Positions 7,901-57,204 of a stretch of 64,000 nt of DNA are shown here, piece by piece. Within the stretch, counting starts at the first letter, position 1; the number at the start of each line of letters is the position of its first letter. The DNA comes from Branchiostoma floridae (Eukaryota > Chordata > Leptocardii > Amphioxiformes > Branchiostomatidae): NCBI RefSeq assembly GCF_000003815.2, contig NC_049989.1:16092522-16156521 (forward strand). The letters are read 5' to 3'. A model generated the notes under the pieces. That model saw nothing but the letters and a program-made list of their open reading frames with translations. It did not search any database and was not told the DNA's origin. A program made the position numbers and the translations under genes.

Positions 7901-10900
7901 AATTCAGGATGCCAGCGTTTTACAAGGTCATATGATAGGGCATCATCACCATAAGTTTTTTTCATTTCATCAAAAGTCCCCTTTGGTGTGCATCCTTTCA
8001 AATACAAAAACCGGATCACTGCGCGACACTCAACTTGCTCCATTTCACACCTGGTCCATTTCACACCTGACTCAGTTCAAACACCAGTAAATCAGTAACC
8101 ACAATTAGTTCAGAGCTGTTTTTTGCAACATAACCCATAGAGATATGACTCATTACACATGCAAAATTTCATCTAGATCAGACAACTGGAAGTGGGTCAG
8201 GGACATTACTTATTGAATGCCCCTCGTACATCTATGCTTAGTACTGAAAACTGGTCCTGAACAACTTCTTATCTCAAATTTACCTCATATTGTTGCAGCA
8301 TTTGCTGATGGTATTTACAGAAAGGAGAGCAGAAACTATCAATTTTAGTACTATGCTGTATCAAACAATTCATCCATATCTGTGCATTTGTACCCTTTAG
8401 GGAACGTCCATCCATGTTGCTAGGTAACAGCCATGCCCCAGGTCTGCCCCGCCCACCAGGACACGCCCTAACCTTCCATGGCCAGTGGGAGGCAGGTGTG
8501 AATGCTGGGGGCTGCAGGAACTACAAATACTTCTACACCAACCCACAGTACTTCTTCTGTGTACCCACAGGTTGTTAATGAAAACTTCTCAATATTCTTT
8601 CAAGTAGTTACTGTAGAATGATATGTTATGCCTTGTATCATAGCTTGAATTTCTTTGGAATTCAGCACCGAGGACAGTACCTATTAACTGTTCTTATTTA
8701 GTTGTAGCATGCATAGTCCAGTGGTTTGAGACCCTGTCTTTGTACCAAGAAGCTGTGAGTTTGTTTCCCAGCTGTTGTTGCTCACTTGACATGAATACTA
8801 CTGGGAAGTGGTGGAGTCCTTAGGACAGGACGTTAAGCTAGCATTGGTCCACTGTTCATTGTGCTTGTCAAAAGAGCTAGGGGAATTTCTCCTCTGCAAT
8901 GAACCTGTAAATACTGAACATAGCATCTGTTTTCTCTGTCATTAGTTATTAAGCTTCACTGGTTAAACGCTGCTTAATATTCTTTTAAATACATGCTTTC
9001 AAATGTTTTATTATGTCCGTGTTACTTTTGAACTTCAGCACTAAGGACAGGTCCTATTCATTGATTTTCCCCTGTGATTTGTTATGATATAATAATTATA
9101 TACTTTTGTCGTGTCAATAAAGATTTCTATAATATTATGATATTGGGTGTATTTGCAGCCAGTAGGTACCCGATGTGTTATAAAATGCTAATTTGAAAAA
9201 TTGAACATCAATGTACCAATTTCCTTATCTAAAAGACATTGATATCTTGACTTTCACTTAATTAAGTTGAATATAGAATTGTACAATGTAGGTAGAGATT
9301 AAAATTTGTTGTTTTTCCCCAATTACAGGAGATGAAAACGTCAAAACTGTAACAATCACACTGCTACAGGAGAAACAGCCAAAGTTACCTTATATGTGCC
9401 ATGCTGCTGCTTTTCATGTCTACAAGGTAAGATCATGACCATAGAATTTAATGTTCTGTGTTTTGTAAATCATCATCAAATATTTGGTGCAGCTATGTGT
9501 AACAGTCATCAGGACTAGCTAAAACTAGAATGCAAGGAACTGTCCAGGGAGGGAAAAAAGGTAGGTAAGGCCACAGCAATTAAATTTTATGGATGACATC
9601 AGCGCGTGCATTAATTAATTTTCGCCTGATTTTTAAGAAACAAGATTTTTTTTCTTCGGAGATGGTCAACATGACGAGAAAGTACCAAAATGGGCAAATA
9701 TGTTGCGTTATATATATAGGCTAATGTTTGTACTTGTAGGAGTGACACTAGCCAGGTAGCCATGACTGTAGTTATAGAAGTGAAACTAAAAATTTAGTGA
9801 GTAATTTAGTGACTTCACACATGAGTCTTGTTGCCATGTTGGTAAGTGATACCAATATACCACACTAGTGTCACCTTTACTACACTAGTTCACGTCATGA
9901 ATACAGAAATGAATGCCTTGTCGACTGTGATACCATGTTCCGTCGCTTCAATTCTTATTTTTTTACGTTTAGGCCATGTTGATTTGATTATATGGATGAT
10001 ATCCTCCGGGAACTCCAAAACTGATGCGAGCGAGCGAATAAAAAAAAAGTTTGGCCAAAAAAAACAAGTTGCCTTCAGCATGAAATCAAAGTGGCCAGGA
10101 AGGTTGAACATAGGACTAAACACACATAGTATGGTATACCAACAGTTAGGTGTAGGGACCAGTACATCATACGGGTGCAAAACATTTTTTTCTTCTTGGA
10201 CCGATCCGAAAAAAACAGACCTGAAAAACAACAACAGAGGAACAGGTTTCGCCAATTACAAAATGGAAACATTATGTCGGCAGCCATTTGGGGTCTAACC
10301 GGGGGGCCAAGAAGACAACAAGAGGAAGTCAAGTGGAGTTTATAGCACCAAGTTTCTACAGTCAAAGGTACAGAGACAGTTAGCCTTTATCACATGGAGA
10401 TGGGATTTTAAAATGCAGTGGGAGTCCAATAATCCACCAAACAGATTCCTTTGTAGCAAAATTGACCAATTACCATTGTTTTGAGTATTGCCAGTTCTCA
10501 AGTTTCCACAGACAATCAGGTCCAGGCTCATGTCCGGACCTGGAAATGATCGCCTGGACCTGAATTTTCTGTACTGGTACCTCCCCCAACCAACAATAGA
10601 TTTTTTTTTTTTCTGCCCTTTTACATCTTATTCTTTGACTTTAGATTCATTTTGGCATTCTATGGCATTAGTTATCTGTTTTCTGATACTTTTTTTTCAA
10701 TCTACGGAGTATTTGTGCTCATTTTACAGCTGCTTTGCACAATTTATTGTGTGGTCGAAAACTTCTTTTTTTTTTTGGAAATGGACGAAAATTGGTGCGA
10801 GCGCGGATGTCATCCTTATAATCAAATCAACATGGCCTTAGTGCATATACATGGATTTGGAAAATCTAGCCATCTTGTTTTTTTTTGCCCTATCTCACTA

Positions 10901-11411
10901 TTTTTGCCGTCTGCAGAGATGTCATCCATAAAATTTACTTCCTGTGGCCTAAGGAAAAGATGGGAGGATGATATCAGAGAACAGACAGGCTTGACACTAA
11001 GCAAAACGCTAAGAAAAACAGAAAACCAAGAAAGGTGGAGAAAACTATTTTCCGGGTACTTTGTGGTTTCCTAACAGTCAAATAATTAGACTAAGAGACA
11101 GATATGAGATGAGAGATATTTGGAGTGCGTATCGTTATTTTTGCATGACTCAATTGGAGCAAATATTTTTGCTTTCCTGTAGCGCTGAGGCACTGAGTCC
11201 ACTATCTTTGTGTTTGTAGGTTGACAAGTGTGAAAGAATCACCGACAGGGAGTTCTTCAAGAAGGCAGATGTTGGGAACTGCGTTCCTCACCAGTATCTG
11301 ACCAGGGTGTCCAAACAGTTGGTCCTACCAGCTGGGTGCTATGTCGTCGTGCCTTCCACTCACCAGCCAAACTGTGAGGGGAAATTCGTCCTTTCCGTTG
11401 CCTTTGATTGA
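1915..11411 (+). CDS. CAPN10: Calpain-10-like cysteine protease, C-terminal part (9 exons, 399 aa visible)
   Basis: Exons: 1915-1998, 2781-2857, 4602-4717, 5193-5309, 5896-6029, 6490-6701, 8401-8570, 9329-9426, 11220-11411 (TGA at 11409). All junctions are GT-AG and all phases match, giving 1200 nt. In order it shows the catalytic His (PHAYN, residue 19 of the visible part), the catalytic Asn (LHNPWGG, residue 43; the 24-residue spacing is standard), then two tandem C2-like (domain III) modules, each with the signature AGGCRN and a closing IPNTF / VPSTH strand. The tandem pair with no EF-hand tail is the calpain-10 architecture, and the last exon (NCVPHQY...LPAGCYVVVPST) matches the end of mammalian CAPN10 as I remember it. 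The catalytic-Cys half (core 1) is not in the window, so either 5' exons lie left of position 1 or this is a fragment. The linker after NPWG is also about 30 residues short. Confidence 0.85.
2026..2227. mobile_element. MITE family A, copy 1 (in calpain-10 intron)
   Basis: Long terminal inverted repeats: the left arm contains GGTAACCTATATCTGTTGT and the right arm ACAACGGATATAGGTTACC, with ends close to GCTAG..CACC and GGTGAACTAGCGTTAC. No coding capacity. It is one of five copies in the window (others near 26.1, 30.4, 32.0 and 36.5 kb) and lies only about 30 bp downstream of a calpain-10 splice donor. Confidence 0.8.
3235..3360 (-). mobile_element. Possible antisense SINE fragment
   Basis: Contains TTTGAACCCCAGTT, resembling the reverse complement of a tRNA B box, after text similar to other SINE-like copies here. 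Partial and degenerate, in calpain-10 intron 2. Confidence 0.3.
4877..5080. repeat. Minisatellite in calpain-10 intron 3, about 18-bp unit
   Basis: About eleven degenerate copies of a unit close to CCCCCAGTAGTGTCCRTA. Reading frames stay open through it (repeating Asp-Thr-Thr-Gly-Gly-Met on the minus strand) only because the unit is a multiple of 3. Unlike the arrays in the minus-strand calpain gene it sits mid-intron, about 160 bp after the donor, and contains no exon sequence. Confidence 0.85.
5500..5800. repeat. Dispersed repeat, copy 1 (pair with 11850-12210)
   Basis: Shares ordered blocks with 11850-12210, including TTCTTGGACC(T/G)GTAAGCCCAAAAA, a GGTCCAAA block and CCAACAAGAA. A diverged transposon family of unknown class, in calpain-10 intron 4. 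Confidence 0.55.
6703..6975 (+). mobile_element. tRNA-derived SINE
   Basis: A tRNA-like head with B box GAGTTCGAATCC near 6755, followed by the body TGTGCCCTTGGGAAAGGCAC and TTTCCTCACTTAACTCAGGTG shared with other copies in the window. It begins within a few bases of the calpain-10 donor at 6702. Pol III head, no ORF. Confidence 0.65.
7649..8226 (-). mobile_element. Mariner-type element, 578 bp, copy 1, with truncated transposase
   Basis: Terminal inverted repeats CGAGGGGCATTCAATAAGTA... flanked by TA on both sides (7647-7648 and 8227-8228), the Tc1/mariner target duplication. The minus strand encodes a 109-aa ORF (7735-8064) with the N-terminal helix-turn-helix of a mariner transposase (FLYLKGCTPKGTFDEM, then YGDDALSYDLVKRW, then FKQGRKSVE..PRPGRPSSA). 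There is no catalytic DDD/E domain, so it is non-autonomous. It lies in calpain-10 intron 6. The full-length copy at 12831-13408 is nearly identical. Confidence 0.9.
9971..10840. mobile_element. TIR element family B, about 870 bp, in calpain-10 intron 8
   Basis: Ends are inverted: TAGGCCATGTTGATTTGATT on the left, AATCAAATCAACATGGCCTTA on the right, continuing into GGATGAyATCC on both sides. No recognisable transposase. Related copies lie at 41982-42212 and 44292-45467, and partly at 55485 and 57335. Confidence 0.8.
10940..11045 (+). pseudogene. Non-LTR retrotransposon 3' remnant
   Basis: The plus-strand peptide contains RWEDDIREQTGL...RKTENQERWRKL, the Trp/Arg-rich end seen after the reverse transcriptase of many non-LTR elements. 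About 35 codons survive. It lies between the family-B element and the last calpain-10 exon and is not part of that gene. Confidence 0.5.
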
Positions 11412-11712: not shown

Positions 11713-11812
11713 NNNNNNNNNNNNNNNNNNNNNNNNNNNNNNNNNNNNNNNNNNNNNNNNNNNNNNNNNNNNNNNNNNNNNNNNNNNNNNNNNNNNNNNN
11801 NNNNNNNNNNNN
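11713..11812. other. Assembly gap (100 N)
   Basis: Exactly 100 undetermined bases, the conventional size for a gap of unknown length. ORFs read across it are meaningless. Confidence 0.99.
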
Positions 11813-17023: not shown

Positions 17024-20000
17024 CTACCACTTGTCCTGCACGTAACAGTTGTAGGAGTACATGTTGAACTGGTTCCGGAGTGGTTTCACCTCAATGTTCT
17101 TCTCTGTGAAGATCCTGATGAGGAAGGATCCCTGTTCCTCGGCGCCGAAGGTGGAGGGAACGATGACGTACTCGCCGGGCTCCAGGTTGGCGCGGAGGAA
17201 CACCTCCCGCAGGTTTATGTACGACCCGGAGCTCGCCACGTCGCGGTGGTACATGAAGTATTTCTGTTGTAGGCGTTCATGGGGATCCTTACCAGCCTGA
17301 AATTTGAGATATCATATTTTTTATAGCATTTGATAATAATTTTACATAAGTTAAATTGTATCACTATCGGCATGCTTGTCTGACAATTCATTATCAGAAG
17401 AATTGATAAATTAATGTACCAGGTCCTGTATTCCTGATTTTGCAATTACTCAGTTTAACATGAGTTTGTTGGCTTCATGGTACACAAAGAGTACATTATA
17501 TAGTCGAATAATATGATCATTAGGCCATGCCAATTAATATCCTTGGTTCTTGGATTTAAAAGAAATGTAGGCAGCGGCCATCATAAAAGCATTGGGCAGG
17601 AAGGAAAACTTGAATGCCGTATTCACTCACAGAGTGCACAGAGGCATAAACAAGTTGTCTTATGACTTTGTTTTCATTGTGTTCTTCCAGTTAGGCATAT
17701 TTTTTTCAATCCGAGAACCAACAAATTAAATTGGCATGGCCTTACCAGACTATGTATGGCCTCTTTTGGTCAATTTTGACCATGGTAAAATCCTGATATT
17801 GACACATGTTGAAATAAAGTGCATTCCTTGTCAATTTGATGGTTATTTCTGATCACAAGGAAACTATGTTGAGAAGATTCCTTAAACGTACCTTATAGAC
17901 GTGCACCCCGATCTGTAGGTTCCTGACTCCCAGGTGTCTCTGTGATCTCCTGTGCTCCTGCATCAAGGCGACCACCACCTTACACTTCCCCTTGTCTTCT
18001 GGAGGGTCGATCTCTGGGTCCCACTCATCTGGTTACAATAGACAGAGAGTTAGGGCGCTCAAATTTCTCAACTATGTTCAGGAAACAAGTACTGAGTATG
18101 AAGTTCCTGTCATCTAGCACAATTTAAATATAGATCTTCCTCATTGATAATGCAAATCATGTCCTAATTTGAATAATTTATATACTGTTACGTCAGTCTT
18201 GATCAAATTACCTATACGGGTTGTAATTCATGAAAAATTATTCATTCTTTCTTGTTTCAGAGTTTGCAACTGCAATGCCATCTGCAGTTCAACTTTTTTT
18301 TAAAGATGCAAGAGGGCCCAAACTTAAACCACTTCTTCCCCACTAAAAGTTGCAATCAAAGCTTGTCCAGAATAAGAGATGTTAAAACCAGAAGTGCCAC
18401 TGCAGTACCATAACAAGTCACTAGGGGGCCCAATCATACCATTTGATGATCAACACCTGCCAACATAACAAGTATCAACTTAGACAATCAATCCATGCAA
18501 TCTCGAATTATCAAGCTCACAGACACCCACACCTACCCACACAGATGCTACTGAAAACATAACCTTTTTGATGAAGATAAAAAAAGAATTTGTACACATG
18601 TATTGGACATTGTAGTTGGACGTGCATTTACCTGGCTCCAGTATTCTGAGTGCGAACTGTGGGTTTGTACACAATGTCATGTATTACCTGGCTCCAGTAT
18701 TCTGAGTGCAAACTGTGGGTTTGTACACAATGTCATGTATTACCTGGCTCCAGTATTCTGAGTGCGAACTGTGGGTTTGTACACAATGTCATGTATTACC
18801 TGGCTCCAGTATTCTGAGTGCGAACTGTGGGTTTGTACACATGTATTACCTGGCTCCAGTATTCTGAGTGCGAACTGTGGGTTTGTACACATGTATTACC
18901 TGGCTCCAGTATTCTGAGTGCGAACTGTGGGTTTGTACACATGTATTACCTGGCTCCAGTATTCTGAGTGCGAACTGTGGGTTTGTACACATGTATTACC
19001 TGGCTCCAGTATTCTGAGTGCGAACTGTGGGTTTGTACACATGTATTACCTGGCTCCAGTATTCTGAGTGCGAACTGTGGGTTTGAACACATGTATTACC
19101 TGGCTCCAGTATTCTGAGTGCGAACTGTGGGTTTGTTGCGTAAGCCTTGATGTTGTTTCTACAGCCGCCTGCCGATGTGCCCTTCTCCCAGAATCCCTTG
19201 ATGTTTGCCTGATGCCACTCCCGATCTGAGTGATCAAAAGAACCATTACTATACATGTAGATGTGACAACGGAACATTAACATTCTAATTTAGCTAAAAG
19301 TATCCTCAGAAATTATGTCTGACTAAGTGATGACATGTTTGACATGTCTGTATTACAGGCGTGCTGGATTTTGGACTGAAGTTAATTTATGTTTTTGGTG
19401 GTCAATAGTAGTATTGATGTTATTTCATAATGCCAGTAATCCATTCCATTAATTGTACAGCTTGATAATGAGTTTGGATAAGTTTAAGTTGCGTTTTCAA
19501 TTCATGGTATTACATGGATTGTAGGGTTTCTCACACTAGCAAAACCACAAGATTCTTTCTGGTGACGAAACTTTTATACGTGGTTGTGGTATACATGTAG
19601 ATCAGCCAGCTCAGGTTTAGAATTCAAAAAAAGGTATTTAATCTAAAGTTAGTTACCTTGCTTTTCTCCAATGCTTTGCTGAGATGGACTTGCATCACAC
19701 AGAGCATGCCAAAAGACTCACTCATTGGACTAATAAGTCTTGTAAGATGGGAACTATCAAAACAACGTGTTACACTCATTACCATTCCACACTGCAAACA
19801 TTGTAACTATTGCACAATTCATTGTTGAAAGCAATGAGTTTATATAACCTCCTTGTTGAAAGCATGGCAGTTAGTTATGTTAAGGATAACTGTCATGCTA
19901 CCTTAGTTGGTTATTAATAAGTATTTGTATCCACCAAAGGTGACTACAGATGTCTACACTTTATCTAGGATAGCCAACCATCTCATTTGTTCAGACTAAC

Positions 20001-23000
20001 ACACTAAACCTAGTATTACTAAGTAGACACAGTGTACATCCTACTGCACCCTTCAACTACTACCAACAACTAGCAGAAACTTACTGTCTGAAGTGTTGAA
20101 TATGTATGTGGGAAAAAGAAAGAACATCATGAGCATAAAAGATTGCTGCTTTTCAGTCGATGTCAACCAACTTAATGGTTGCAGTAATGTCTTACATTTT
20201 TGTTCTACATCATACGTATAAAAACAGTGGTAGTAAATAAGTATGAAGATACATATACTAGCATCTGGTATGACCTGCCCATCAAAAATCTACATGTATT
20301 CTTTTCAACGTGTGTTGCATTTAGACTTACGTCACAATCTTATTATGTTATTCGCATACTCTTATGTTTTCCATTGGGTTTCACATATATACATTGTATA
20401 TCTTGATTGCAGTGTGTTAGGAAGGACATTCATGTGTGCAGCCTAACCATGGTGAACCTGCCTACCCCATTAAGGTAAGGTGAAAGACTCACCCACATCA
20501 GCAATAGCATCAGCGTCGAAGTCTGGGCCTATTGTGCAGATGGTGACCTCTGTGAAGTGTTGGCAGAAGTCCTTAAAATCCATCCTAAAACATCAGAGTT
20601 TGGTGTGAAAAGGACATAGGAAATATGGTTACCATTTTAAGCTTGAGTTAACTTAAGTTTTAATTTTCTTGTCGAAACCCCCAAGTAATGCAAGAGGGAG
20701 AAAATATTAAATTTTGACAGCAATAGAATGCTAAACATTCAAACCTACAGGGATAAAAAACTTCAACATCAAACAAGCATAAAGCCTCGATAGGACATCT
20801 TGAATTTGTCTGGGAGACTCTCGTAAAGCTGTGCACATGTAAAATGGGTATTTGCATGGATAGATATATTGGAAAGTTGAGCCAATTCGTATCCTCCCAC
20901 TATCTTTTACAAAATCAGTATAATTCAGGAATCTTACACCTGGGTGAAGAAAGGAAAGTGGTGTAAAGTGCCTTCCCCAAAGGCAAAACATTGGTGGCAT
21001 GTCATGAGATTCAAACCCAGGACCTCTGTGTTCTCGGGCAAACACCCTAACTCACTGTTACACCACTACGACACCACAATACACGAATATTAGTCAGATA
21101 ATAAGAAAGAGCGGAGTAGTTGTAGCTTGTCCCATCGGTATCTCACCAGAACTCCCCATCGTCCTTGTCCGTGAAGCCTATTCTGTCCCGTTCGTGTTGA
21201 GGGACACGGTTCCAGAGAGGGCTCCTGTGGTGAGTTAGACAGTCGTTAGATGATTGTACCAAGTAGTACACAAATTGATATTGGAAACGCATCTATGAGT
21301 TGTTTTGTCGCTTTAACTTAAAAGTACTCGTAATATCAACTAGTTTTTCTGAACTTATTATTGTTTTTAGAAATTCAGAACCTACATTACCATATGCCAG
21401 AAATATAGCACGTGTCTTTTTGGTTATATCAAGCAACTTAACTGTACTTCCATGAACAAAGTTGTTGAAATGTAGGTTTTGAACATGGTGTCATGAAATC
21501 TGAAGAACTACTTTATTTTCTTACCGGTAGTGCAAGTCAGAGTGAATGCATAAAGACTAACTTATAGATGTTACGAGATTGATATTATAAGAAGAACAGC
21601 AGACGGGTCTAGATATACATACTAGGACAGATAGAGGGTCAAGGGACTTGTTAGGTAGACAGGTTTACAGGTTAACAGACATAGTGACAGAGTTGGCGTG
21701 AGGACTACTTTGGAAATTGTACGGAGCTGGAAATGGTACGGTCAGGTGGAGGGACAAGGTAGATAGGCAGGTATACAGATTAACAAACATCGTGGTGTAG
21801 ACGGTACTGGGAAATGACAGACTCTTGGTTGTTGTGCAGACTTGAAGCTGGATGGGTCATCTACTGAGGATGTGAAAGGTGGGGATGGGGTTCGCACAGA
21901 GGGTAAACAGACTGCATTGACCTACATGTTCCCACACTGTTGCACTTTTTCAAGCAGATATTCCATAGGCCTAGAGAAAAAAAATGTTGTTTCCAGCTAT
22001 AGTCCTAAAAAAATCCAGATCAAAAGATGGGGATACTCATTTTTTAAAAAGACTTCAGATGAAGTAAAGAAAAGGCTGAAGTGACCCTAGAAATATAACT
22101 TAGCGATCAAATCATTTAAAATTGAAATACCTTTACTGGTAATTGAGCATCACATAATATGTCATTACAGATTTTACAAGCAGAAGCAAATTGATAACCT
22201 GCACAAAGAGGCAAAATGTTCATAACATATTCTTTCGTCAACTATGTTTAACGCTTTAATCTGTTAACAGACTGCAAAATACAGGGAGTAATGGTAACGT
22301 TATATTTTGAATTGACCACTTATAGATGTCAGATAAAAAATTTTGTGTCCTTTGTCAGCGTTTGACAAAAAGAGCGTTGGGATTGGCTAGTAAATGCTAA
22401 CTAAAGGTAGTTTGAATAACCAAAAACACAACATTCTTTTCCTAGGCCTAATTAATCAGTGGTTAAAGGAGAGGGGGTTTGGAGAAGTACAACAGAGGGG
22501 AACAACGAGAGTAGCGCCGCGGTACTCACGAGTCACTCCAATCTCCCGTCCACTCTGTGCCGTCGCCCCAGGGGTTGCGGATCCGCACCAAGGGGAAGTC
22601 GCCAAAATTGCTGTGGACCTATTTATTCAACAGAGCCTGTCAATTAGGCATGTACCATTGTGGAAATGTGGAAAATCGTCTTTGCTAAACAATTCATATC
22701 TGGTATAAAATTGATGTCTTAACCTTTTGTGAGTATTTGAGATCTTGAACACATGATTTCTTAAAAGAAATAATCACTAATTCCAATTGTACTTAATTTC
22801 AAGCCGTCAGTGTAATTCTTATTTTACGCAAAACTTTTCTCTTTGTGGTCTGAACTGTCTTATATTTACCATGGGTTTACCTGTCCCGTAAGACAATGTT
22901 GCTTCTATTTTTTTGCCCCCCCCCCTCAAACTTACAATGTATTTGAGGTCTTGAACACGTGATTTCTTAAAAGAAATAATCACTTAATTCCAATAGTACT

Positions 23001-26000
23001 TAATTTCAAGCCGTCAGTGTGATTCTTATTTTACAGCAAAACTTTTCTCTTTATGGTCTTTACTGTCTTATATCTACCATGGGTTTACCTGTCTCTTAAG
23101 ACAATATTGCTTCTGTTTAGATACCCCCCCCCCCAAACTTACAATGTATTTGAGATCTTGAACACATGATTTCTTAAAAGAAATAATCACTAATTCCGAT
23201 TGTACTTAATTCCAAACCGTCAGTGTAATTCTTATTTTACAGCAAAACTTTTCTCTTTGTGGTCTTTATTGTCTTATATTTACCATGTGTTTACCTGTCT
23301 TGTAAGACAATATTGCTTCTGTTTAGATGCCCCCCCCCCTCAAACTTACAATGTGTACAGAAGTGATACTGTAGGCATGGCCACCCACAAGACCTTGCGC
23401 TGTGACGCCGTGTTGGGTCAGTGCTTGTGTCGTCTGAAAATGAAAAAAAAAACAAGTGATGTACTGTTAACAGACATTCCTTATAAATCATACAATTCTA
23501 ATCAAGTGCTGCAAGCTAACCTTAGTTTACAAATTTACAAATTTGATTGATTTCTTAAGCAAATGGCATCAAAAGGCCAAGAGCAAGGCTAGAAAACCTG
23601 AGGTCAGGGGTTTGATTCCTGACATTCCTAGCTCGCTAGTCATTTGGAAAGCCACTTTCCTCGACTTTCCTCACTTCAACCAGGTGTAAAAATGGGTGCC
23701 TGACTTTGATTGAGGAGATAAAAGACAGTGAAAGGAGGGGGATGGGCTGTGCCCTAGATACAGTGGATACACTGCCCTGCGGCTTCTTGAGGCAATGGGA
23801 CCACAAAAAGGCTATGAGACTACAAAAAGGCTATGAGACTACAAAAAGGCTATGGGACTGCAAAAAGGCTATGGGACTGCAAAAAGGAAATGGGACTACA
23901 AAAAGGCTATGGGACTACAAAACGGTTATGGGACTACAAAAAGGCTTTGGGACTACAAAAAGGCTGTGGGACTACAAAAAGGCTGTGGGACTACAAAAAG
24001 GCTGTGGGACTACAAAAAGGCTGTGGGACTACAAAAAGGCTATAGGACTGCAAAAAACACTATGGGACTACAAAAAGGCTATGGGACTACCTTCACCTAT
24101 AAAACGTATATTTCTTTACCTTTTTTGAGGTGGTGAAGAAGGCTCGTTTCTTGAAGGCTCGCCTCATGATCTGATACAGGTTTCCTGGCGCCTTCTTTAA
24201 GTCGTAGCTCTCTGCCATCCCACCAGTCAGGTCCTCCAGGGCGTCTATAGCCTGTCCGCCATTCAGCGCCTCGTATGAACCACGGAGTCTACAGAAAAGG
24301 GATTGAAAACGATGTTACTTACTTAAGACAATGTTCTCATTGAGGAAATATGCCATGTGCAATACTCAACATACTAGTACATATTCAGAATAGGGTAAAC
24401 CTTTGGCAACTGCCTTAAAGCCTTTGCAAAACAGTTCAGTTGCTGCTTGTTGATGAAAATGGTATTGAGACTCATCTTCCTATTGAACGGCATTTGCTAT
24501 GTACTCTAGTATGTTGTTACCATCTGTCTATTCTTCGGACCATTTCCAAGCCTTCCTAACCCATGTCCAAGACTTAGGAACTCATTTCAGAGCCTTCTAC
24601 CAACCATTTCTGCACACACGTACACTTCCATTTCTTTTGAAGACGGCTTTGCAATAGATTGGACAATGTTTGGAAATTGTTTGGAAGGCTTAGAAGTAGT
24701 CTAGAGAAGCTAGCTTGCCCTCTATGGCGCGTTGGGCTTTCGTAGATCTCAGCTTACTTGGCATAGAGCTTCTCCACCAAAGCAACATAGACATTTTCCA
24801 CCAAAGCAACATAGACATTTTCCACCAAAGCAACATAGACATTTTCCACCAAAGCGACATAGACCTTCTCCATCAAAATAACATATAAACATAGCTTAAT
24901 CAAAGGCAAGTCACATGTTAAGATCACGAAGACTTTGCTTACTTGGCATACGCCTTTTCCACCAGAGCGCTCCAGAACTCGTTGGGATCGCTGGAGCGGC
25001 AGTACATGGGCTGCTGGCCGGCCATGGTCGGCAGCATGTCATCCACGATGGTGTCTACCCACTTCCCGTAGCGCCAGAACTTGAAGTGGAACATGCCGAC
25101 ATACGAACCCTCACCCTCGCCCTCCTGCCACATGTACTGGTCACGTGGGACAACCTGGTCACGTGGCAACATTGGGTGAGCAACCGAGTTGACGTTGATG
25201 TTAAAACTCCAAACGTTTTATGTATTTAATCTCGGGGACAATTGATCTCACTTCTATCTGTATCAATCATGATCATACCTAACACATGGTGACTATTAGG
25301 AACAAGAACGGAATGTTGACAGCACCCTCGAATTAAATCATATCAAAGATTCTCTGAAAACTTGGTGACAACCCGTTCAAAGTTGGATGCTGCAAATGAA
25401 CTGGGCTTGAACGATTCTAACTGGGCAATGTCAACAGTAACCTTTTTATCAACAGCTAGAAGTCCAAGGCAATGAAAGAAAAAAATACGTTAAACTAGAA
25501 ATGTAACATTTGCAAAGGAATCTATAGTGTTTGATATCACATGGTCTAGTTCAACAAACTACTGGACTATCTATTCGTAGTCAAAATACATTCGTATATA
25601 TGGTGACCGGCAACTCCCGCCTAGCCCTGCCACTTACTACATGTTATCTAACACCACAGGGTGTCTACTACTTTACCAGCAACCATGGTAACGTACTATC
25701 CTTCGGTCGAGGTCATTGACTTTATTTCTTTGGAAAAGAGGAAGAATAAGAAATTGAACAAAAATGAAGTGAAGGTAGATATAAAAGTTTAATACCAATT
25801 TAATACAAATACTGTCGAGATCACTTTAAAATGTTGTTCCGACCTTTTCCATGAGAGCGGAGTCCCGGCAGATGGCGGCAAGAGACACCAGGAACCAGCA
25901 GTCTCCCAGCATGCCCTGGATGACGTCATCGCGGCTGATTCCGTCCACCAATAGGCGTGGTTGCGTCACCCCCATAATTTCCTTCGGAGATGGGGAGAGA

Positions 26001-29000
26001 AAAAAACTTATCAGTTACGTTTCTGATGAGAGTGGATGTAACGCTAGTTCACCTTTACTCGTGGGGTAACCTATATCCGTTATACGGTATCAAATCAACG
26101 GACGTTTCAAATTGAAACCACCGTCTGTCAACTTGCTATCCCCAAATATCTTGTTTTTTTATAGACAACGGATATAGGTTAACCCGCGAATAAAGATGTA
26201 CTAGCGTTACCCGAAATGTTTTTTTACAGCAATTAGATTATTTTACCTTATTTTGACATTATCTAGACGACAGAGATTCCTGTGCATCCGAGGATTCGTT
26301 CGTCAGACAGGATGTTAGATGAAGGTCCTGTTTTGAGGAGAGCCACACCTCAAGCATGTTGAAGAACCCACCACACTTATTGAAAAGAATATAAGAATAT
26401 GGTCCTTTCCGGTGTGAATAGTGAACATATACAGTCCAATTGAGGTCCCCCATTGTTGACGCCAATTGGCAGACCCTTGCGATTTAGCCCCGCTTATTGT
26501 AAATATGCAATTCAACCCCTGCCTGCAAGGAGAGAGTAGTCAGCCCACTCAATGATAATAAAAGTAAGTACAATATTCAATGTTTATTCTTCTATTTACT
26601 CCTTCCATAGCACTAGAAAAAGAGCCTCTAGTGCGATTTTCCCAAGAAAATCCAGTGCGATTTTTCCGAGAAAATTGAAAAATCCCTGTCCTTGGTGCTG
26701 ATTTGGTTATTATTAGTTACACTGGGTCGTTATGTCACTTTCCATCCACCAATCACTTCAAAACTTCTTTCTGTAGGTTTTCGACAACTAAACGAAAGAG
26801 TAGATGACTCTTAGCAGTGTTCCTTATTCCAAATGTGATTTTCCAAGAAAACGGAGAAATCCCTGTCCTTGGTGCTGATTTTGGTGATTAGTTATACTGG
26901 GTCGTTTTGTAAAACTTTAATTGCCAACTACCAATCACTTCAAATCTTCTTTCTGTAGGTCTTCAGCAACTAAACGAAAGAGTAGATGACTCTTAGCAGT
27001 GTTCCTTATTCCTAATGCGATTTCCGAAGAAAACGGAGAAATCCCTGTCCCTGGTGCTGATTTGGTTATTAGTTATACCGGGTCGTTTTGTAATTTGAAT
27101 TTGAACTTGAATTGCCATCCGCCAGTCACTTCAAATCTTATTTCTGTTAGTTTTCGACAACTGAAAGAAAGAGTAGATGACTCTTAGCAGTGAAGCTTCT
27201 CAAGAAAATGGACCCTGTCCTTGGTGCTGATTTGGGTATTAGTTATACTGGGTTGTTTTGTAAAATTTTAATTGCCATCCACCAATCACTACAAATCTTC
27301 TTCCTGTGTGTTTTCGAAGTAGAAAAAAGAGAAGATGACTCCTAGCAGTGTCCCTCATTCCTACATTTCCCCAGCCACCCCCAATTTACCTGTGGTCTCT
27401 TCCAAACGATCCTAGGGTCGATGTTCTGCTGGCTGTAGAAGAGGGAGGCCGGTCTGGCAGGAAAGTCCGGGTCGGAGTACAGCGCACCCGGCCCCATGGC
27501 GAGGATCTGACTCTTCATCCGCTTGTAGTTCTTAGTAGCGTAGGAAACATGGAAGTACCAGGGAGCAAGGACAGGGGACAGGCGATAGAATTTAAATGTA
27601 AAAGCGAGACAGCTACGAATGGAAAGAATCAGTATAGTGTGTTATGAGAGGGCAAGATTTCTAAGAGAGAAAATGCAGAAGGGAAGCTAAAAAGATGGGA
27701 AAATATGACGATGGTATTAGTAAGTAAATAACAAACATTTGTCACAATAAACTTCAAGTAACAGTGGGTTTGAAGATATGAAATCGTTTTACGAAAGTTT
27801 GCTTTCATTCATGCTCTTACTATTGTGAAATGTCTCAATAAAAATGGGACTTGGCTAACAAAGTGTTCAGGACTATTAGACAAACACGGCATGCGTACGT
27901 ATTGCCATGGGGACGTTTAAGGACAACATATAATGACAATTGGACACGACTGCAAATGTAGATGGTTTAACTCACCACCTGAAACCAAAAACGAAGTTAC
28001 GGTGAGGCGCAGAAAAGCAGGAACATGTCTACTCTCTACTCGTATTTGCTCTGAACACAGTGTACATTTACGTTTGTTTTTCATCTACCCGAGAGACAGA
28101 AGATGATAGAATGACACAGCAAAAAATCCAGGAAAAGCGGCCTGCTGGCCGATTTGAGCTTCTCATGAATAAGTAAAGGTTCAAACAAACAAATTGCATC
28201 ATAAAGTATAAAGTAGTTTAGGGTAAAGAACGTTTATTGCATAACCTATAGGTCTTGCTGTCGGTGAGTAGCATACTACTTAGGTATTTTTACGGAAATG
28301 TAGAATGAATACCTTTATTGTGCATTTTTTTCAGCCTAGCTAAGTACAGATCATAACAAAGACAAAACATAGATGTAAAAGGATCACAGATCTAGTCTTG
28401 CGTATAGATGTGGCTTCTCCTTGCTTCATAGTAATGTAGGATTGCATGGGCTTAGCTATATAAAGTCGGTTAGTCATAATAAAGCGTGTTCCAAAGCAGT
28501 GTGCCTAAAGTGCGAAATGGAACAAAAAGTACCGAAAAGGAAAGTTCCGAAAGCGCAACAAGGAACGAAATGGAATGAAGTATGAAGAGAAATGAAATCG
28601 ATGGAAATGTAAGGAAACGGTCCCGTGAGCGTCCTTTTCACTCCTTTTCTTTCCTTTTCGTACTTTCGGTAGACTCTTCCAAAATGTGGGCTAAGGGGAC
28701 TTACCGTGACCCCCAAGTCGTCCTCATCAGCCAGGTCGTCCCTGGGTTGTGTCTCCTCCTGCTCCGGCGCCTCGGGAGGTTTGGGCGCCAGTTTCTCCTT
28801 CTCTTTCCACTTCAGCAGCCCGTCATCCGCCTCGTCTACAATCCCGCTGTCTCTGCTGATGGTAGACCTGTGCAAAAGGAAGTTGAAAACTAGGATATAG
28901 GAGAATTCTTGCGCACAACCAGGTACAGGGTAGACACCGAAACGTCAGCAAGTAGGTTTAACCTGGTTGTGTACATGAATTCTCCTATATCCTATATTCT

Positions 29001-30039
29001 ACCAACCTATGAAACTGTTTTCGGAAAGTTGAAAACTAGATATCAAAACCGGAAGATCCGCTACAGTACCATTACAAACCACTAGGGCCCCCAAATCTGC
29101 TCATCTTGAGGTCTCAGCAAGACCTACCCACAACCCAAGTATTAAGAATATCCACCAAGGCACTCATAAGTTATAATAATCAGACACACGTATGCACACA
29201 CACACGCGAACGCAGTCAAAATCACAACCAAGCTTCTTGGCAAAGGTAATAGAATAAGGAAACTTGGTAAACAAACGTAAATAGACGATGTGATGGTACT
29301 TTTTTTGTATTTGTCGCCATGCCCATTTGTTCCTGTCTTCCTTTCCTGCTAGATAGTTTCTTCCCAAATGAACTAATGTAGTTTTTCAGTCCTTTATCAT
29401 CCATCTATCACACCTTCTCTGCCTTATCGATATCGCCCTTTTATGTTTTCTGCGTCTCTTTCAATATGCTGTTTTTGCCGAGTTCTTATCATTCATGCGC
29501 TCTACTTGTCATTTTTGTTCTTTCACTCCTTAACTCACTCTCTTACCCGTTCCTTCCCTTTTTACTATCCTTAATAAAGAAAAAAAACGTTTCTGCAAAA
29601 CTTACCCTGTTCTTCCCCTTTGAGGATGTAGCTTCTTGTCATCCCATGCAGGCCCCTGGATTTTATGCAGTTGACGCCTGGGCTGTGGTTTCGGTTGAGG
29701 CTGAGGCTCGGCTGGCTGTAGGCGAAGTTGTGGGCGCGGCTCCAGTCGTGGCTTCGGCTTCGGGCCGATGTTGAGTTCGGGAAAGTCCGGGAAATCGTCG
29801 TCGGCGTCTCCGTCCAGGTGGATGATCTCCTCCTTGACCACCCGGCCGAACGGATCCTTGTATCGTTTGATGAGGATTCGGCGGGTGGTTCCGGCTCCGA
29901 CTTCGGGTGGGGCGCCATCATCGTCTGTGCTGCGCACTACTTCCGTGCTGTAACAGATCCCCATCTTGGAGGAGGAGGATGTTGTTGTTGTGAGAGGGGC
30001 GTAACCAAACACCCCGTCAGTCACAGACGACATAGACAC
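17024..30039 (-). CDS. Calpain cysteine protease without EF-hand domain (13 exons, 711 aa)
   Basis: Exons in gene order: 30039-29606, 28867-28705, 27530-27390, 25981-25844, 25154-24943, 24288-24120, 23433-23350, 22618-22530, 21224-21147, 20584-20493, 19225-19100, 18028-17892, 17296-17024 (TAG). All introns are GT-AG and in phase; total 2136 nt. Calpains are Ca2+-dependent cytosolic cysteine proteases making limited cuts. Residues 1-199 are a low-complexity Ser/Thr, Pro/Gln, then acidic leader. The protease cores follow, with Cys274 (GMLGDCWFL), His438 (GGHAYSIT) and Asn462 (RIRNPWGDG); His-Asn spacing is 24, as in m-calpain. One C2-like domain III follows, with SAGGCRNN, an acidic loop (DEWDPEIDPPED) and INLREV...VIVPSTF. 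The protein stops 20-odd residues later, with no penta-EF-hand domain. A second Met at residue 26 (ATG at 29964) begins MGICYS. Several introns carry junction-spanning arrays. Confidence 0.92.
17520..17747. mobile_element. TIR element, about 228 bp, in calpain intron 12
   Basis: The left end TTAGGCCATGCCAATTAATA and the right end AAATTGGCATGGCCTTA are inverted, with inner matches GGTTCTTGGATT / AATCCGAGAACC. Related in layout to the element at 57543-57890. It lies between the last two exons. Confidence 0.7.
18629..19099 (-). repeat. Exon-end/donor minisatellite after calpain exon 11 (nine extra copies)
   Basis: In gene sense each unit holds the last 37 nt of exon 11 (coding TNPQFALRILEP) plus the start of the intron (GTAATACATGTGT). 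Six units are 50 bp (starting 18797, 18847, 18897, 18947, 18997, 19047) and three are 56 bp (18629, 18685, 18741) with a 6-bp insertion in the intronic part. The true exon end is at 19100. Ten near-identical 5' splice sites therefore lie in a row; the distal one reads CAG/GTAAAT. Neither unit length is a multiple of 3, so read-through would shift frame. Confidence 0.95.
20925..21085 (-). mobile_element. tRNA-derived SINE, antisense
   Basis: Contains the reverse complement of a B box (GATTCAAACCC) and of the shared SINE body (GTAAAGTGCCTTCCCCAAAGG). Sense direction is the same as the host calpain gene. In intron 9. Confidence 0.6.
22735..23349 (-). repeat. 206-bp tandem triplication carrying the donor of calpain exon 7
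   Basis: Three copies (22735-22940, 22941-23147, 23148-23349) of a 202-207-bp unit. In gene sense each starts at the splice junction (ACATT/GTAAGTTTG then a G run), so two extra donors identical over about 10 nt lie near 22935 and 23142 besides the true one at 23349. The exonic contribution is only about 5 nt. Copies differ by scattered substitutions and by the length of the C/G homopolymer. Confidence 0.9.
23590..23745 (+). mobile_element. Probable SINE fragment
   Basis: B-box-like GGGTTTGATTCCT followed by CTTTCCTCACTTCAACCAGGTG and AAAAATGGGTGCCT, the body shared with the copies at 6.7 and 59.5 kb. The A-box half is poorly preserved. Confidence 0.5.
23794..24090. repeat. 19-bp minisatellite, about 15 copies, near the donor of calpain exon 6
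   Basis: Unit GGCTATGGGACTACAAAAA. In gene sense every unit reads CCTTTTTGTAG, a pyrimidine tract plus AG resembling a 3' splice site. The array starts about 30 bp into the intron after exon 6. All three plus-strand frames are open through it because 19 is 1 mod 3; those ORFs are artefacts. Confidence 0.93.
24752..24880 (-). repeat. 24-bp in-frame repeat copying the end and donor of calpain exon 5
   Basis: Exon 5 ends with codons for ALVEKAYAK split by a GTAAGC donor at 24942. About 60 bp downstream, five units of 24 nt code ILMEKVYV, then ALVENVYV three times, then ALVEKLYAK, ending in the same GCCAA/GTAAGC donor at about 24755. The array is thus an expanded, diverged copy of the exon end with its splice site. 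It stays open for at least 45 codons from about 24895 in the calpain frame. Confidence 0.9.
26039..26212. mobile_element. MITE family A, copy 2 (calpain intron 3)
   Basis: Left TAACGCTAGTTCACCTTTA and GGTAACCTATATCCGTTAT, right ACAACGGATATAGGTTAAC and CTAGCGTTAC. No ORF. Confidence 0.8.
26630..27365. repeat. About 180-bp tandem repeat, 4 copies, near the donor of calpain exon 3
   Basis: Four copies with successive landmarks (CTGTAGGTTTTCGAC and variants) at about 26771, 26953, 27144 and 27304, each followed by AGAGTAGATGACTC and CTTAGCAGTG. It starts about 25 bp after the exon 3 donor (27389) and fills the 5' half of the intron. No exon bases are duplicated in the part I could align. Confidence 0.88.
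29962..29964 (-). other. Alternative calpain start codon opening an MGICYS N-terminus
   Basis: Internal Met26 of the long frame. Context AAGATGG (A at -3, G at +4) is a strong Kozak match, whereas the upstream ATG at 30039 follows GTCT and is weaker. Translation from here would give 686 aa beginning Met-Gly-Ile-Cys-Tyr-Ser, which fits N-myristoylation of Gly2 (small residue at position 6) with palmitoylatable Cys4. Confidence 0.55.
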
Positions 30040-33520: not shown

Positions 33521-33745
33521 GATTCTAAAACGTACAAGTAGTCTAGTCTTGCTAACAAATTGCATACAGCTGTTTTGAATGTGAAAGAACTACCCTTTAC
33601 TTGAGAAGAGTCACTGGTGTTATGTCGTCGTTCAATAAAACGTACTAGTAGTTTAGCCTTGCTAACAAATTACGTACAGCTGTTTTGAAAGTGAAAGAAA
33701 TATCCTTTACTTCAAAAGAGTCACTGGTGTTATGTCGTCGTTCAA
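33521..33745. repeat. Two-copy tandem repeat, about 110-120 bp
   Basis: Two copies sharing TTGCTAACAAATT, GTACAGCTGTTTTGAA and GTCACTGGTGTTATGTCGTC. No coding function seen. Confidence 0.8.
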
Positions 33746-35690
33746 AATACCCCATGGCAAGTTGAAGAGTTCAGACACATTGTATTTCGATGATCTTGGT
33801 CACTTCTCTCTGAGTCATAAACGTTTTCGATATCATTTTGATATTCAGAGCTATCTTTACATTGAATATGTCTCATCTGAATTATATGCTTCCAAAGAGA
33901 AGCTTTTTGTCATGTATCTAATTTTGTAGAACGCGCAAAATTGCAATTTGATGCTTGTTTGTCTGCGCTAGGTGTTTATTTTCATCTACAAAATGGGGTT
34001 TATTAGGTACGTAATCTAGGTTGAAACATTCGTGACCCACTTTTTACGTTGAATATCAATGCATTGTCATATACGACTTTTTGCTGTGTTCGTATCAAAA
34101 GTGTAATGATGATTGCTAGTGTATAAACGTATAATTGAAGAAAATAAATTTATCGAAAGTTTCCGCTTCAGATTTTGCTCGTGTCTTCAATCCATCATTT
34201 AAAGCGTATAAGACCAACATTTCCCATCAACTTTTGGTCCTAATGCTTAGTGTAACGTGACTCATTGGTAATCGGAAAAGTGGTCAATTATGCGTAAAGT
34301 TCATATAGAAATTTTAAAATCACTTTTGTGTAACTAGGATATTGACATTTAGTGTGGTTTAGCATAACACTTTACAGTTTTAAACTTCATGCGAACCGAA
34401 ATATGATATTTCATATCTCTATACCCCATATACGAACAACTGGGTCGTCTTTCCGCGCTGCCATATGGGCGTATAGACGATAAGAAGTTGATAACAGCAG
34501 CCGCGAATGCCATTAAAATGTTTATATCTGCTAGTATGCGGGAACATATGTATGCCCCTCCCTCTACATGTTTCAACAGCTATATATACGTACTAAGTGT
34601 ATGTCATTGCAAATCCTGTGGGGCTATAAAGCGTAACCATACCTTCTGTCGTCTGCAGACAGACGGGTGTCCTTAACATCCGACCTTGACAGCTTTGGTA
34701 ATGCTGGTGTATTCCAGGGAGTCTTGCAGAGGCGACGGGACGGCTTACTAGCGGTTTTGACGCAGATTTAAGCAAGAGGAAAACAGGGGGCGGATGACAT
34801 ATACACCTCGGCCGATAGGGAATGGGAGCAATGTGAGCTATATTTAGGTTGGGAGGGGGGTTCGGGCAATGGGACTGTCTTGCGCACTGAGGAATAGATG
34901 TATCTGGAAGCCAGAATGTATTCTATCATACACTATAACACAAGTTAGGAAACTGATGGGGTAACTTTTAAACACATTGATCAAGTGAGCACTACTACTG
35001 AGTAAATCTCAAAAACCACGGGAGCCCCCTATCGGTTTATTCAGGAAAGTCATCCATTGAGAAATTATGACAGCTGCGTTCACTGACGCATCAAAAGGTC
35101 AAACTATATGATATGATATCTTATATCACGTATCATAACGTCACTGTCTTATAACAGTCATAATAGTGGTAGTATCAAATTTTGCAGTCTGTACTATCAA
35201 GTACATTCATGATATCTGATGACATCAACTAACTATGACGTATGTTGGAAGTTCTATCATTCTATGTAAGTTCGTTTACTCATGTTTTAAGAGGAGGGGC
35301 GAAGCTTGTAGAAAATAGTTAGGATATATCATTGTTTATCTGTTGTTATTAACTTTATATCAAACTTAATGCATTTAGCCCCATTGGGGCATGAACATGC
35401 AATAAACATCATTGTCATTGTCATTCATTCTTTATTGCCCCCCCCCCCCCATACACAGATACTTAAAAACGATGGATACAGTTTTTGCCCATGCATATTC
35501 GGACATGTTACTTTCAAAGATTCATAATTTTTTCAACGTCAAAGAATATACGTATATACTATAGATGCATCTAAGTGCGGTGAATGTGGAAGTATAAACG
35601 TAGTGTTTGCGGTAGTTTTGAGCTTACGTTAGCGTTATAGCCACATATCGCTACAGCAATGGAAACATTAGTTTTTAGTCCCGATTGACA

Positions 35691-36033
35691 CTAGTTCGTA
35701 CTACAATACTGAAGAGACAACAACAAAACGCGGTGGTTTTGAGTCTCGCGGGCTTCAATGCATTTACAGTATGTCGCAAGACACTGCTAATACCCGGTTG
35801 GTACTAGTTCGTACTACAATACTGAAGAGACAATAAAAAATCGCGGTGGTTTTGAGTCTCGCGAACTTCAATGCATTTACAGTATGTCGCAAGACACTGC
35901 TAATACCCGGTTGGTACTAGTTCGTACTACAATACTGAAGAGACAACAACAAAACGCGGTGGCTAAGTTTCGTAAACAAAAAATGTATTTCAAGCATGTC
36001 ACAAGACACTGTTAAAACCCGGTTTGTACTAGT
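35691..36033. repeat. 113-bp tandem array, three copies, abutting the stop codon of the next gene
   Basis: Copies start at 35691, 35804 and 35917 with CTAGTTCGTACTACAATACT; a fourth partial start at 36029 overlaps the stop codon region of the gene at 36034-37831. In gene sense the array begins exactly with TGAACTAGTAC. Confidence 0.85.
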
Positions 36034-37831
36034 TCAGGCCTGTAGTCCCGAGCCCTTGCATGTTCTGTTGACACAATCGAGATGACGCCGCTTGGCCTTG
36101 TTGGCCCTGGGTGACGTTTGCTGGTTCCTCTCGTGTGGCGTATGGGTGTCGGCCTCACCCCTGTCAGTTGTACATTCAACTGGTCTTTTCGACGAACCAC
36201 CTTGAAAAACAGAAAGATTACAGATTTACATTTTGAACTTGACGTTTCACACAAAATTGTCACAAAGTATAGATGATCTGACCAACGCAGTGTCGTGCAA
36301 AAGTAGCCTATATACGTCACATTTCCAAGCCGAGGCCCGACCGGGCAGCTTTCAGGAACTAAAAGTATGACATAAAAGACACCAAACTACGCAAAACGTA
36401 AATAGTCGTTGGTATTATCTGTGTAAGATTTACGTATAATGTTAGTTCACCTTTATCCATGAGGTAACCTTTATCCGTTGTTTTTAAAAGCGAGGTATTT
36501 AGGGATATTAAGTCGATGGACATTGGTATCAAATTTGCAATATTTCAATGTATAGGAATATAAGAAACATTGCAGTTTGACGTCGACTTGATATCCCTAA
36601 ATAACCTGCTCCTAAAAGCAACGGATATAGGTTACCACACGGATAAAGGTGAACTAGCGTTATATTTCTATTCTTCGTTTCAACAAACAGCCCGGCCGGT
36701 CTAGTCTCCAAGCAGACCCTACGGTGCCTTATAGATATCATCAAAGCTGGTCAAGGAGTATAGTTTGACTCCCTTTGGCCGGCTATCTACCTTTGGCTGG
36801 CTATTTATACTCCTTAGCCAGCTTTGATACTACAGTATCTCGAAGGCACCGTAGGGTCTGCTTGGAGACTACGGCCGGGCCCAGGTTTGGAAATGTGACG
36901 TTAGCCCAAATCTCGCTGTGGAGAGGAGTCAGTTAAAGCCCCATGACAGCAGGGTTTGTGTTAAACAAACTAGTCGAACAGTACCTCGAATTTTCTGTGG
37001 GAAGTTGAAGTACCACGGAGCCCCTTCTGTAATGTCGTGCATTTTCTGTTGCTCCTCTGGCCATAGCTGACGGCGGCATGAGAGACGCCTAGCGGGTGTT
37101 GTTACACTTGCATCACCCACGTTCTGATTGGCGAGGACTTGCACTGTCTGTGGGTCGTCAAGGGTTAGCAAGATCCCGTCAAGTTGTAAGACATTCATTG
37201 TTGCACCGGATGCGTACTGTGCAACTATATCGTTTGAAGATGAACCTGTACAACACTTGTACCACTGCACATCCGGGGCAGTCGCGCAGACGAGAGAAGC
37301 GCACTTCTGTGATGGCGGGAAAGTCTGCTTGTTGAGCGTTTTGCTCTGACACGCATCGCCCAGTTGTTGGCTGTTTGTGGGGGTTTCTTGACACTGTGCC
37401 GCACTTTGGGTTGGTCTGTAAACTGGCAAACAACCATGTTGATGAACCCCTTCCTTAGCCTCTCCCAATGTGCCATTGTTAGCTGTCGTCAGCAGATCTA
37501 AATCTGACTTCTTTTCCGTTGTATTAGAGAGAAGTTCCTCCGCCCAACGTAACATGAAGTTTGTGTCGTTTTCGGTCAGGAATTTGAGCTCCTTTCCGTC
37601 GTCTGATAGTTGACCGGGAAGCCAGGGCGCTGAGGCAGCCTGTTGCTGCTCTTGTGTGAGGGAAGTTGGAGTCCTGAGTTCCCAACTCGGATCTGTTGGT
37701 GATGATATCGTTTGCCTTGGCTGCTGGATTTGGGAGTTACTCTCGCAGGGACTAACTTCAACCGAGGTCTTCTCTGTTTGAGGATAATTATTCCTATCAC
37801 CCAAACGTTCAACAGTCACACCTGCACTCAT
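36034..37831 (-). CDS. Unrecognised protein, two exons, 337 aa, disordered Gln/Ser-rich
   Basis: Exon 1 is 37831-36985 and exon 2 is 36200-36034. The donor CGAG/GTACTG and acceptor TTTTCAAG/GT join in phase 1, and the frame stays open for 282 codons in exon 1. The long open frame and clean splice make a real gene likely, but I recognise no family. The N-terminal third is rich in Ser, Thr, Gln and Pro. Short order-prone patches follow: FLTENDTNFMLRWAEELL (about residues 84-101), a Cys-containing stretch (SLVCATAPDVQWYKCC), VLQLDGILLTLDD, and PWYFNFPQKIRG before the junction. The C-terminal exon is hydrophilic with a basic cluster (ANKAKRRHLD) that could be a nuclear signal. No signal peptide or membrane helix. 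The intron (36201-36984) is built almost wholly of nested transposons. A. -3 A supports the ATG at 37831. Confidence 0.65.
36305..36905. mobile_element. Nested elements: family E interrupted by a MITE and a foldback
   Basis: The outer element has ends TACGTCACATTTCCAA and TTGGAAATGTGACGTTA, and matches the uninterrupted copy at 43843-44037. It is split by MITE family A copy 5 (36438-36663; flanks resume exactly at the ACGTATA / TTTCTATT point of the intact copy) and by a foldback (36702-36885, arms GTCTCCAAGCAGACCCTACG / CGTAGGGTCTGCTTGGAGAC). The whole stack lies within the intron of the 36-37.8 kb gene. Confidence 0.8.
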
Positions 37832-43761: not shown

Positions 43762-43799
<38 letters not shown>

Positions 43800-52500: not shown

Positions 52501-52800
52501 CATGGTAGAGGAATCCCTAAACAGATGTTAGACTCTGGCTTCCTAGCACATTGCACTGGTCAGCGCCATAGAAGTCTTAAAATAAACAAATACATACTTT
52601 GTCCTGGTAAGCTCTAGTAATATTAGAGCTTTGTTTTCTTCCCTGTTTGTCATTATTGGTATGTCTGGGACTGTCCATATCATAGGCATGATATATATTG
52701 TTGCAACTAAAGCGGTGGAAACCATAAATACGTCACAGAGTATGTTACCTAAGGTCACTTGTTGGTTCATTTTTTCAGGTTTGGGAGCCGACCAGCCTTC
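49512..52800. other. Intergenic region before the ApaH-like gene
   Basis: No coding exon recognised; about 3.3 kb. It holds the dioxygenase 3' end (AATAAA at 49752) and the promoter of the next gene. A pyrimidine-rich TTCATTTTTTCAG/G at 52779 looks like a 3' splice site, so a 5' UTR exon of the downstream gene probably lies here. Confidence 0.55.
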
Positions 52801-57102: not shown

Positions 57103-57204
57103 GAACGTTATATCAGTCCTTGCGTGAACTTAAAACCACAGCAAAAAGTCATTTTCCCCGCTACCGCAAAATTAAATCCCCGCAAACTTAAATGCATTTA
57201 CAGT
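57035..57204. mobile_element. MITE family F, copy 1
   Basis: Ends ACTGTAAATGCAGAAAC and TAAATGCATTTACAGTA, with internal TTAAAACCACAGCAAAAAG and CGCTACCGCAAAATTAAAT. Opposite orientation to the copies at 61874 and 62376. Confidence 0.75.

Follow-up and report, generated by a model that had tools for sequence, protein, structure and literature searches.

A single calpain gene of the amphioxus Branchiostoma floridae carries tandem repeat arrays on the donor (5' splice site) side of five of its introns, and three of these arrays contain copies of the exon end and the donor itself. The gene is located in a stretch of 64,000 nucleotides of contig NC_049989.1 (assembly GCF_000003815.2, positions 16,092,522 to 16,156,521 of the forward strand), here called the window, and all coordinates refer to this window. 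Tandem repeats that span exon-intron boundaries are known as mirages in the amphioxus Adh3 gene and the globin genes BflGb6 and BflGb9 (PMC3087553). The kind is thus not new, and among the described cases that we compared, the calpain gene stands out as unusually rich. We consider it fairly probable that the arrays are ordinary minisatellites, which originated from independent small tandem duplications, were later expanded, and were tolerated as the original donor stays 5'-most.

The calpain gene (17024..28867, minus strand) was modelled with 12 coding exons that form a single open frame of 566 codons, separated by 11 introns that are all of the GT-AG type. The coding exons are numbered 2 to 13, exon 1 being unassigned. 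Exons 2 to 5 are located at 28867-28705, 27530-27390, 25981-25844 and 25154-24943, exons 6 to 9 at 24288-24120, 23433-23350, 22618-22530 and 21224-21147, and exons 10 to 13 at 20584-20493, 19225-19100, 18028-17892 and 17296-17024, the last of which contains the stop codon. The modelled protein matches the Pfam families Peptidase_C2 (PF00648, E=1.2e-110) and Calpain_III (PF01067, E=2.4e-42), and calpain-2 in the PDB (E=9.6e-124, residues 56-550). By its predicted catalytic domain and domain III, the gene is a calpain. Just these two families were matched, with no penta-EF-hand family at a Pfam E of 0.01, and the modelled frame stops after domain III; the C-terminal penta-EF-hand of the classical PEF-type calpains was thus not found, and no search for alternatively spliced downstream exons was made. 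Upstream of exon 2, a strong coding-like frame on the minus strand (29632-30018) has no Pfam match and is a possible first exon.

Tandem arrays were called with Tandem Repeats Finder (TRF) at a score of at least 50, which gave 29 rows in the window. The seven rows in the calpain introns correspond to six arrays, all listed on the minus strand, since the row 26630-26675 was merged into the array in intron 3. TRF and the single-frame gene model agree with the preliminary description of the locus that five introns carry arrays, namely those after exons 3, 5, 6, 7 and 11. Array A (26630..27364, intron 3, donor at 27389) consists of about 4 copies of a 182-bp unit, including a diverged donor-side copy. 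Array B (24752..24885, intron 5; 24762-24885 by TRF) is built of 24-bp units and its distal end is a copy of the exon end and donor. Array C (23790..24090, intron 6, donor at 24119) contains 15.8 copies of a 19-bp unit, and array D (22733..23354, intron 7) three copies of a 206-bp unit that starts at the exon/intron border. Finally, array E (18628..19136) covers the end of exon 11 and part of intron 11 with 9.8 copies of a 50/56-bp unit, the authentic donor being at 19099. These unit lengths are close to those first reported (180, 24, 19, 206 and 50 bp).

Arrays A to E start 25, 57, 29, 0 and 0 bp from their donors, close to the approximate values of 25, 60, 30, 0 and 0 bp given earlier. The value for array A includes the diverged copy, which was missed by TRF; by its TRF extent the array is 197 bp away. 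Its upper end at 27364 was set by eye, the TRF rows alone covering 26630-26675 and 26656-27192. The distances from the acceptor are 648, 473, 356, 114 and 599 bp. The preliminary description left a sixth, weak array uncounted (24540..24597; 21 bp x 2.8, TRF score 60), located in the middle of intron 5 at 345 bp from the donor and 251 bp from the acceptor; it is a counter-example to donor proximity and was included in the tests below. Rows of lower score (30-49, 16-28 bp long) were left out of the array counts; such rows occur near the donors of introns 2 (45 bp) and 4 (33 bp) and near the acceptor of intron 7 (40 bp).

The percentage of matches within the arrays, as given by TRF, is 84 in A, 90 in B, 90 in C, 91 in D and 97 in E, and three 56-bp variants are grouped in the distal part of array E. 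The unit junctions of D and E (two of the five arrays) contain microhomologies of 2 nt and 5 nt (2+3), respectively. A blastn search of eight larger arrays of the window against the window gave no array-to-array match at an E of 0.01. This absence of similarity supports independent origins, as the unrelated units had suggested earlier, and a common dispersed repeat behind the arrays was rejected on the same grounds.

Copies of the splice sites were searched for with probes aligned to their own introns, the donor probe comprising the last 30 exon and the first 10 intron bases, with 200 resamplings and a floor of p=0.005. The donor probe gave a signal above the null for three of the 11 donors, those of introns 5, 7 and 11, where it scored 22, 15 and 40 (null means 9.2, 9.7 and 9.9; p=0.005, 0.015 and 0.005). 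This bears out the claim that three arrays copy the exon end and donor. The p-value for intron 7 is by itself modest, given 22 probes, and we accept this copy because the 206-bp unit itself starts at the exon/intron border. The acceptor probe, which omitted the last 15 intron bases, was significant for none of the 11 acceptors (lowest p=0.06). Arrays A and C were rejected as copies of exon 3 or its donor (score 10, p=0.50) and of exon 6 or its donor (score 8, p=0.83), respectively, and are not classed as mirages because the donor probe found no border copy.

The tandem unit includes the exon-intron boundary in arrays B, D and E, which is what defines a mirage, and the three differ in anatomy. 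The authentic donor in array E is followed by nine copies at +50 to +468, eight of which are identical over the 18 printed bases. Each copy in array D carries ACATT/GTAAGTTTG, where the slash marks the border, with donor copies at +207 and +414 and an exon part of just 5 nt. The five 24-nt units of array B are identical to nucleotides 24968-24945 of exon 5 at 16, 18, 18, 18 and 19 of 24 positions. Only the distal unit, the last of the five, carries a donor copy, TATGCCAA/GTAAGC, at offset +185. There are thus 12 decoy donors in introns 5, 7 and 11, and the donor motif is kept as CAG/GTAATA in 8/9 (intron 11), ATT/GTAAGT in 2/2 (intron 7) and CAA/GTAAGC in 1/1 (intron 5).

Computed read-through to the decoys ends in a stop, at codon 464 or codon 468 of 566 for exon 11 (nine of nine decoys tested), at codon 310 for exon 7 and at codon 218 for exon 5 (the single decoy). 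For exon 7 the tested offsets were +414, plus +206 and +412 out of register, and the stop precedes +207. Any decoy donor, if used, would truncate the calpain protein, and decoys as protein-coding extensions were rejected because of these stops. The alignment to calpain-2 continues across the 5/6, 7/8 and 11/12 exon junctions and thereby supports use of the first donor copy in all three mirages.

The position of the arrays was evaluated by placing all six randomly, either each within the intron that holds it or across all introns of the gene. With array A extended, five of the six are located at most 60 bp from a donor, as compared with 0.65 to 1.1 expected (p=0.0004 and 0.0001 for the two placements); with the TRF extents it is four of six (p=0.006 and 0.002). 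A 30-bp cut gave p=0.0008 and 0.0001 with A extended, and 0.008 and 0.004 with the TRF extents. When single units were placed in the intron as it was before expansion (A extended), p was 0.0004; it was 0.004 if overhang across the donor was allowed, and 0.01 when either intron end was counted. All of these tests are post hoc, for one gene picked by the preliminary description and with a 60-bp cut set after its distances were known. At the acceptors, none of the six arrays is located within 60 bp, again with 0.65 to 1.1 expected, the nearest being at 114 bp. This absence is weak evidence, as only about one array was expected there.

The statement that no array sits at the 3' end of an intron holds for these six arrays, but a smaller repeat does cross an acceptor. 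A two-copy duplication with an 18-bp step and a 12-nt exact match (25137..25166, minus strand) spans the acceptor of intron 4, exon 5 starting at 25154, and supplies a second in-frame AG six codons further on. It was invisible to the acceptor probe because the probe left out the last 15 intron bases. Outside the arrays, eight local repeats of this type were found in the 64 kb, of which this is one, and a hand estimate (about 44 splice sites of 30 bp each) gives about 0.17 splice-site overlaps expected by chance among the eight. The overlap may be a chance event.

For comparison, 11 donors that belong to other genes of the window were inspected by eye, and none has a TRF row with a score of at least 30 within 100 bp downstream (calpain 5/11 versus 0/11, p=0.035). 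Six of these donors belong to a phytanoyl-CoA dioxygenase-like gene, four to a divergent calpain paralog (the last, at 6701, being unsure) and one was read by eye; the donor of at least one unmodelled exon of the dioxygenase-like gene is omitted from this count. The paralog has an array of its own at approximately 4866-5075 (TRF 4878-5018, and 5021-5070 at a score of 49), in the middle of an intron and about 150 bp from the donor.

The proposed link to the mirages of amphioxus is supported by the literature (PMC3087553; PMC3902484). Published amphioxus mirages are found at donors and acceptors, that of BflGb6 being at an acceptor, with units of 10-72, 150-160 and 157 bp, and they have been proposed as a source of new introns (PMC3087553). 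Length instability, between alleles or in somatic cells, was reported for Adh3 and BflGb6 (PMC3087553). As in Adh3, BflGb6 and BflGb9, the units of the calpain mirages hold an exon edge and a splice signal, have unrelated lengths between loci and are copied within the intron. Unlike these genes, the calpain gene has three mirages, each of them at a donor, and two further arrays near donors that lack the border. Normal splicing despite mirages is supported by RT-PCR in that work (PMC3087553); in the calpain gene, the first donor copy of each mirage gives a conserved open frame. The lancelet PGBD5 gene, described in a study that also cites troponin C, has tandem arrays of 60 bp and 108 bp at splice sites (PMC3902484), and resembles the calpain gene in having more than one array of imperfect copies abutting splice sites, two as compared with five. 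Furthermore, introns of VCBP3 contain whole exons or parts of exons, and canonical splice sites are present in some of these (PMC2632668). The available text of the amphioxus huntingtin paper mentions several tandem repeats in the scaffolds, none of them noted at splice sites (PMC2206037). By title, neither a calpain case nor a survey of splice-site arrays in amphioxus was found among the open-licence matches listed, and PMC3087553 was the sole such match that joins amphioxus, calpain and minisatellites.

Ordinary intronic minisatellites have similar unit sizes, within-array divergence and independent sequences. The divergence between copies within the calpain arrays resembles theirs, whereas the location of five of six arrays close to a donor does not. 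We suggest that each array goes back to a small tandem duplication that arose close to the 5' end of its intron. The duplications in introns 5, 7 and 11 would have crossed the exon/donor border, by which the donor and some of the exon end were copied into the intron, and the arrays may later have grown by slippage or unequal exchange. The microhomology at the junctions of D and E fits slippage or end-joining duplication and proves neither. Their tolerance would follow from the position of the authentic exon end and donor, which stay 5' of all the other copies and are joined to the real upstream acceptor. If the spliceosome ignores the downstream copies, as it presumably does, a donor-side duplication leaves the message unchanged because the authentic donor is 5'-most, and amphioxus genes are known to carry similar repeats without disturbance of the mRNA (PMC3087553; PMC3902484). 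Duplications at the acceptor would disturb the branch point, the tract and the order of AGs. The donor bias is best accounted for by such tolerance, together with short ancestral introns and chance; a mild mutational bias may contribute.

Some observations weigh against this interpretation. Donor proximity exceeds random placement, in five of six arrays with A extended and in four of six by the TRF extents. Arrays A and C are located near donors (25 and 29 bp) without a donor copy, and tolerance alone leaves them unexplained. Microhomologies of 2 and 5 nt are furthermore weak evidence for any single mechanism. Since tolerance covers the three mirages and not A and C, a mild donor-side mutational bias remains a candidate.

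A stronger version is that a mutational hotspot at 5' splice sites, related for example to transcription-linked R-loops or to a signal at the step from exon to intron, generates the duplications. This would account for the five arrays near donors and the none near acceptors, and for the proximity of A and C to donors that they do not copy. We nevertheless regard it as rather unlikely, since no array was found at the 11 donors of the other genes, the array of the calpain paralog is in the middle of its intron, the p-value is just 0.004 once units in the pre-expansion intron may overhang the donor and 0.01 if proximity to either end counts, and published mirages occur at acceptors too (PMC3087553). 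That 5' splice sites genome-wide are a general hotspot for the birth of tandem duplications, via a transcription- or splicing-linked process, we hold to be unlikely. For the shared mechanism at exon/intron borders proposed in the preliminary description, the donor bias within the gene (p from 0.0001 to 0.01) has to be set beside the 0/11 control donors; a border-specific mechanism may exist but is unproven.

The clustering could also reflect chance, combined with the fact that a single gene was chosen post hoc from a window of 64 kb. The gene was picked after being seen, the cut was chosen with the distances at hand, the null with either end gave p=0.01 and the comparison with the other donors merely p=0.035. 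Random placement with the 60-bp cut gave p-values of 0.0001 to 0.006, and three of the five arrays include the donor, which makes this explanation improbable in our view. A role for the donor copies as decoy 5' splice sites that bind U1, and thereby regulate splicing or guard the transcript from premature ends, could be read from the 12 extra donors and their retained motif (8/9, 2/2 and 1/1). We find such a role very improbable, given that no donor copies were detected in A and C (two of five), that recent expansion explains the high identity in E and that decoy use would truncate the protein. As for an assembly artefact, at least in copy number, the mirage in haplotype 1 of BflGb6 appears to be aberrantly assembled in the draft genome (PMC3087553). 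The units of all arrays other than E have diverged, which is not expected from assembly stuttering, and the sole 100-N gap of the window (11713-11812) is outside the gene; we regard an artefact as very unlikely.

Turning to the other features of the window, the calpain paralog is located on the opposite strand (2800-6701, plus), where four joined exon translations match Calpain_III (E=1.6e-29); reading by eye also gave an HNPWG-containing exon and a donor near 2859. Stretches similar to calpain domain III at 8435-8551 and 11223-11399 (plus; tblastn E=1e-4 and 0.008) perhaps represent a third calpain-like gene or a fragment. The dioxygenase-like gene (40911-49511, plus; PhyH, E=2e-09) has no tandem array of at least 100 bp in its span. 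Other coding sequences are a 258-codon open frame with a calcineurin-like phosphoesterase domain (52783-53556, plus; Metallophos, E=1.5e-17) and an ion channel fragment at the window edge (20-112, minus; Ion_trans_2, E=2.3e-06). Larger arrays at 33526-33745 (110 bp x 2) and 35690-36035 (113 bp x 3.1) have no gene model around them, and 20-24 nt of the latter recur at 57185, 61874 and 62377 (blastn against the window, E 0.01). Searches of the window with Rfam at gathering thresholds and with ARAGORN under the bacterial code gave no matches.

Intron 11 of the calpain gene, in which ten near-identical donors follow one another, represents a natural test of how the spliceosome chooses its 5' splice site. 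Should arrays prove to be enriched at donors across the genome, a new mutational process linked to splicing or transcription would be indicated. Were such a hotspot to exist, genes would accumulate donor-side arrays and decoy donors over time, feeding the gain of introns.

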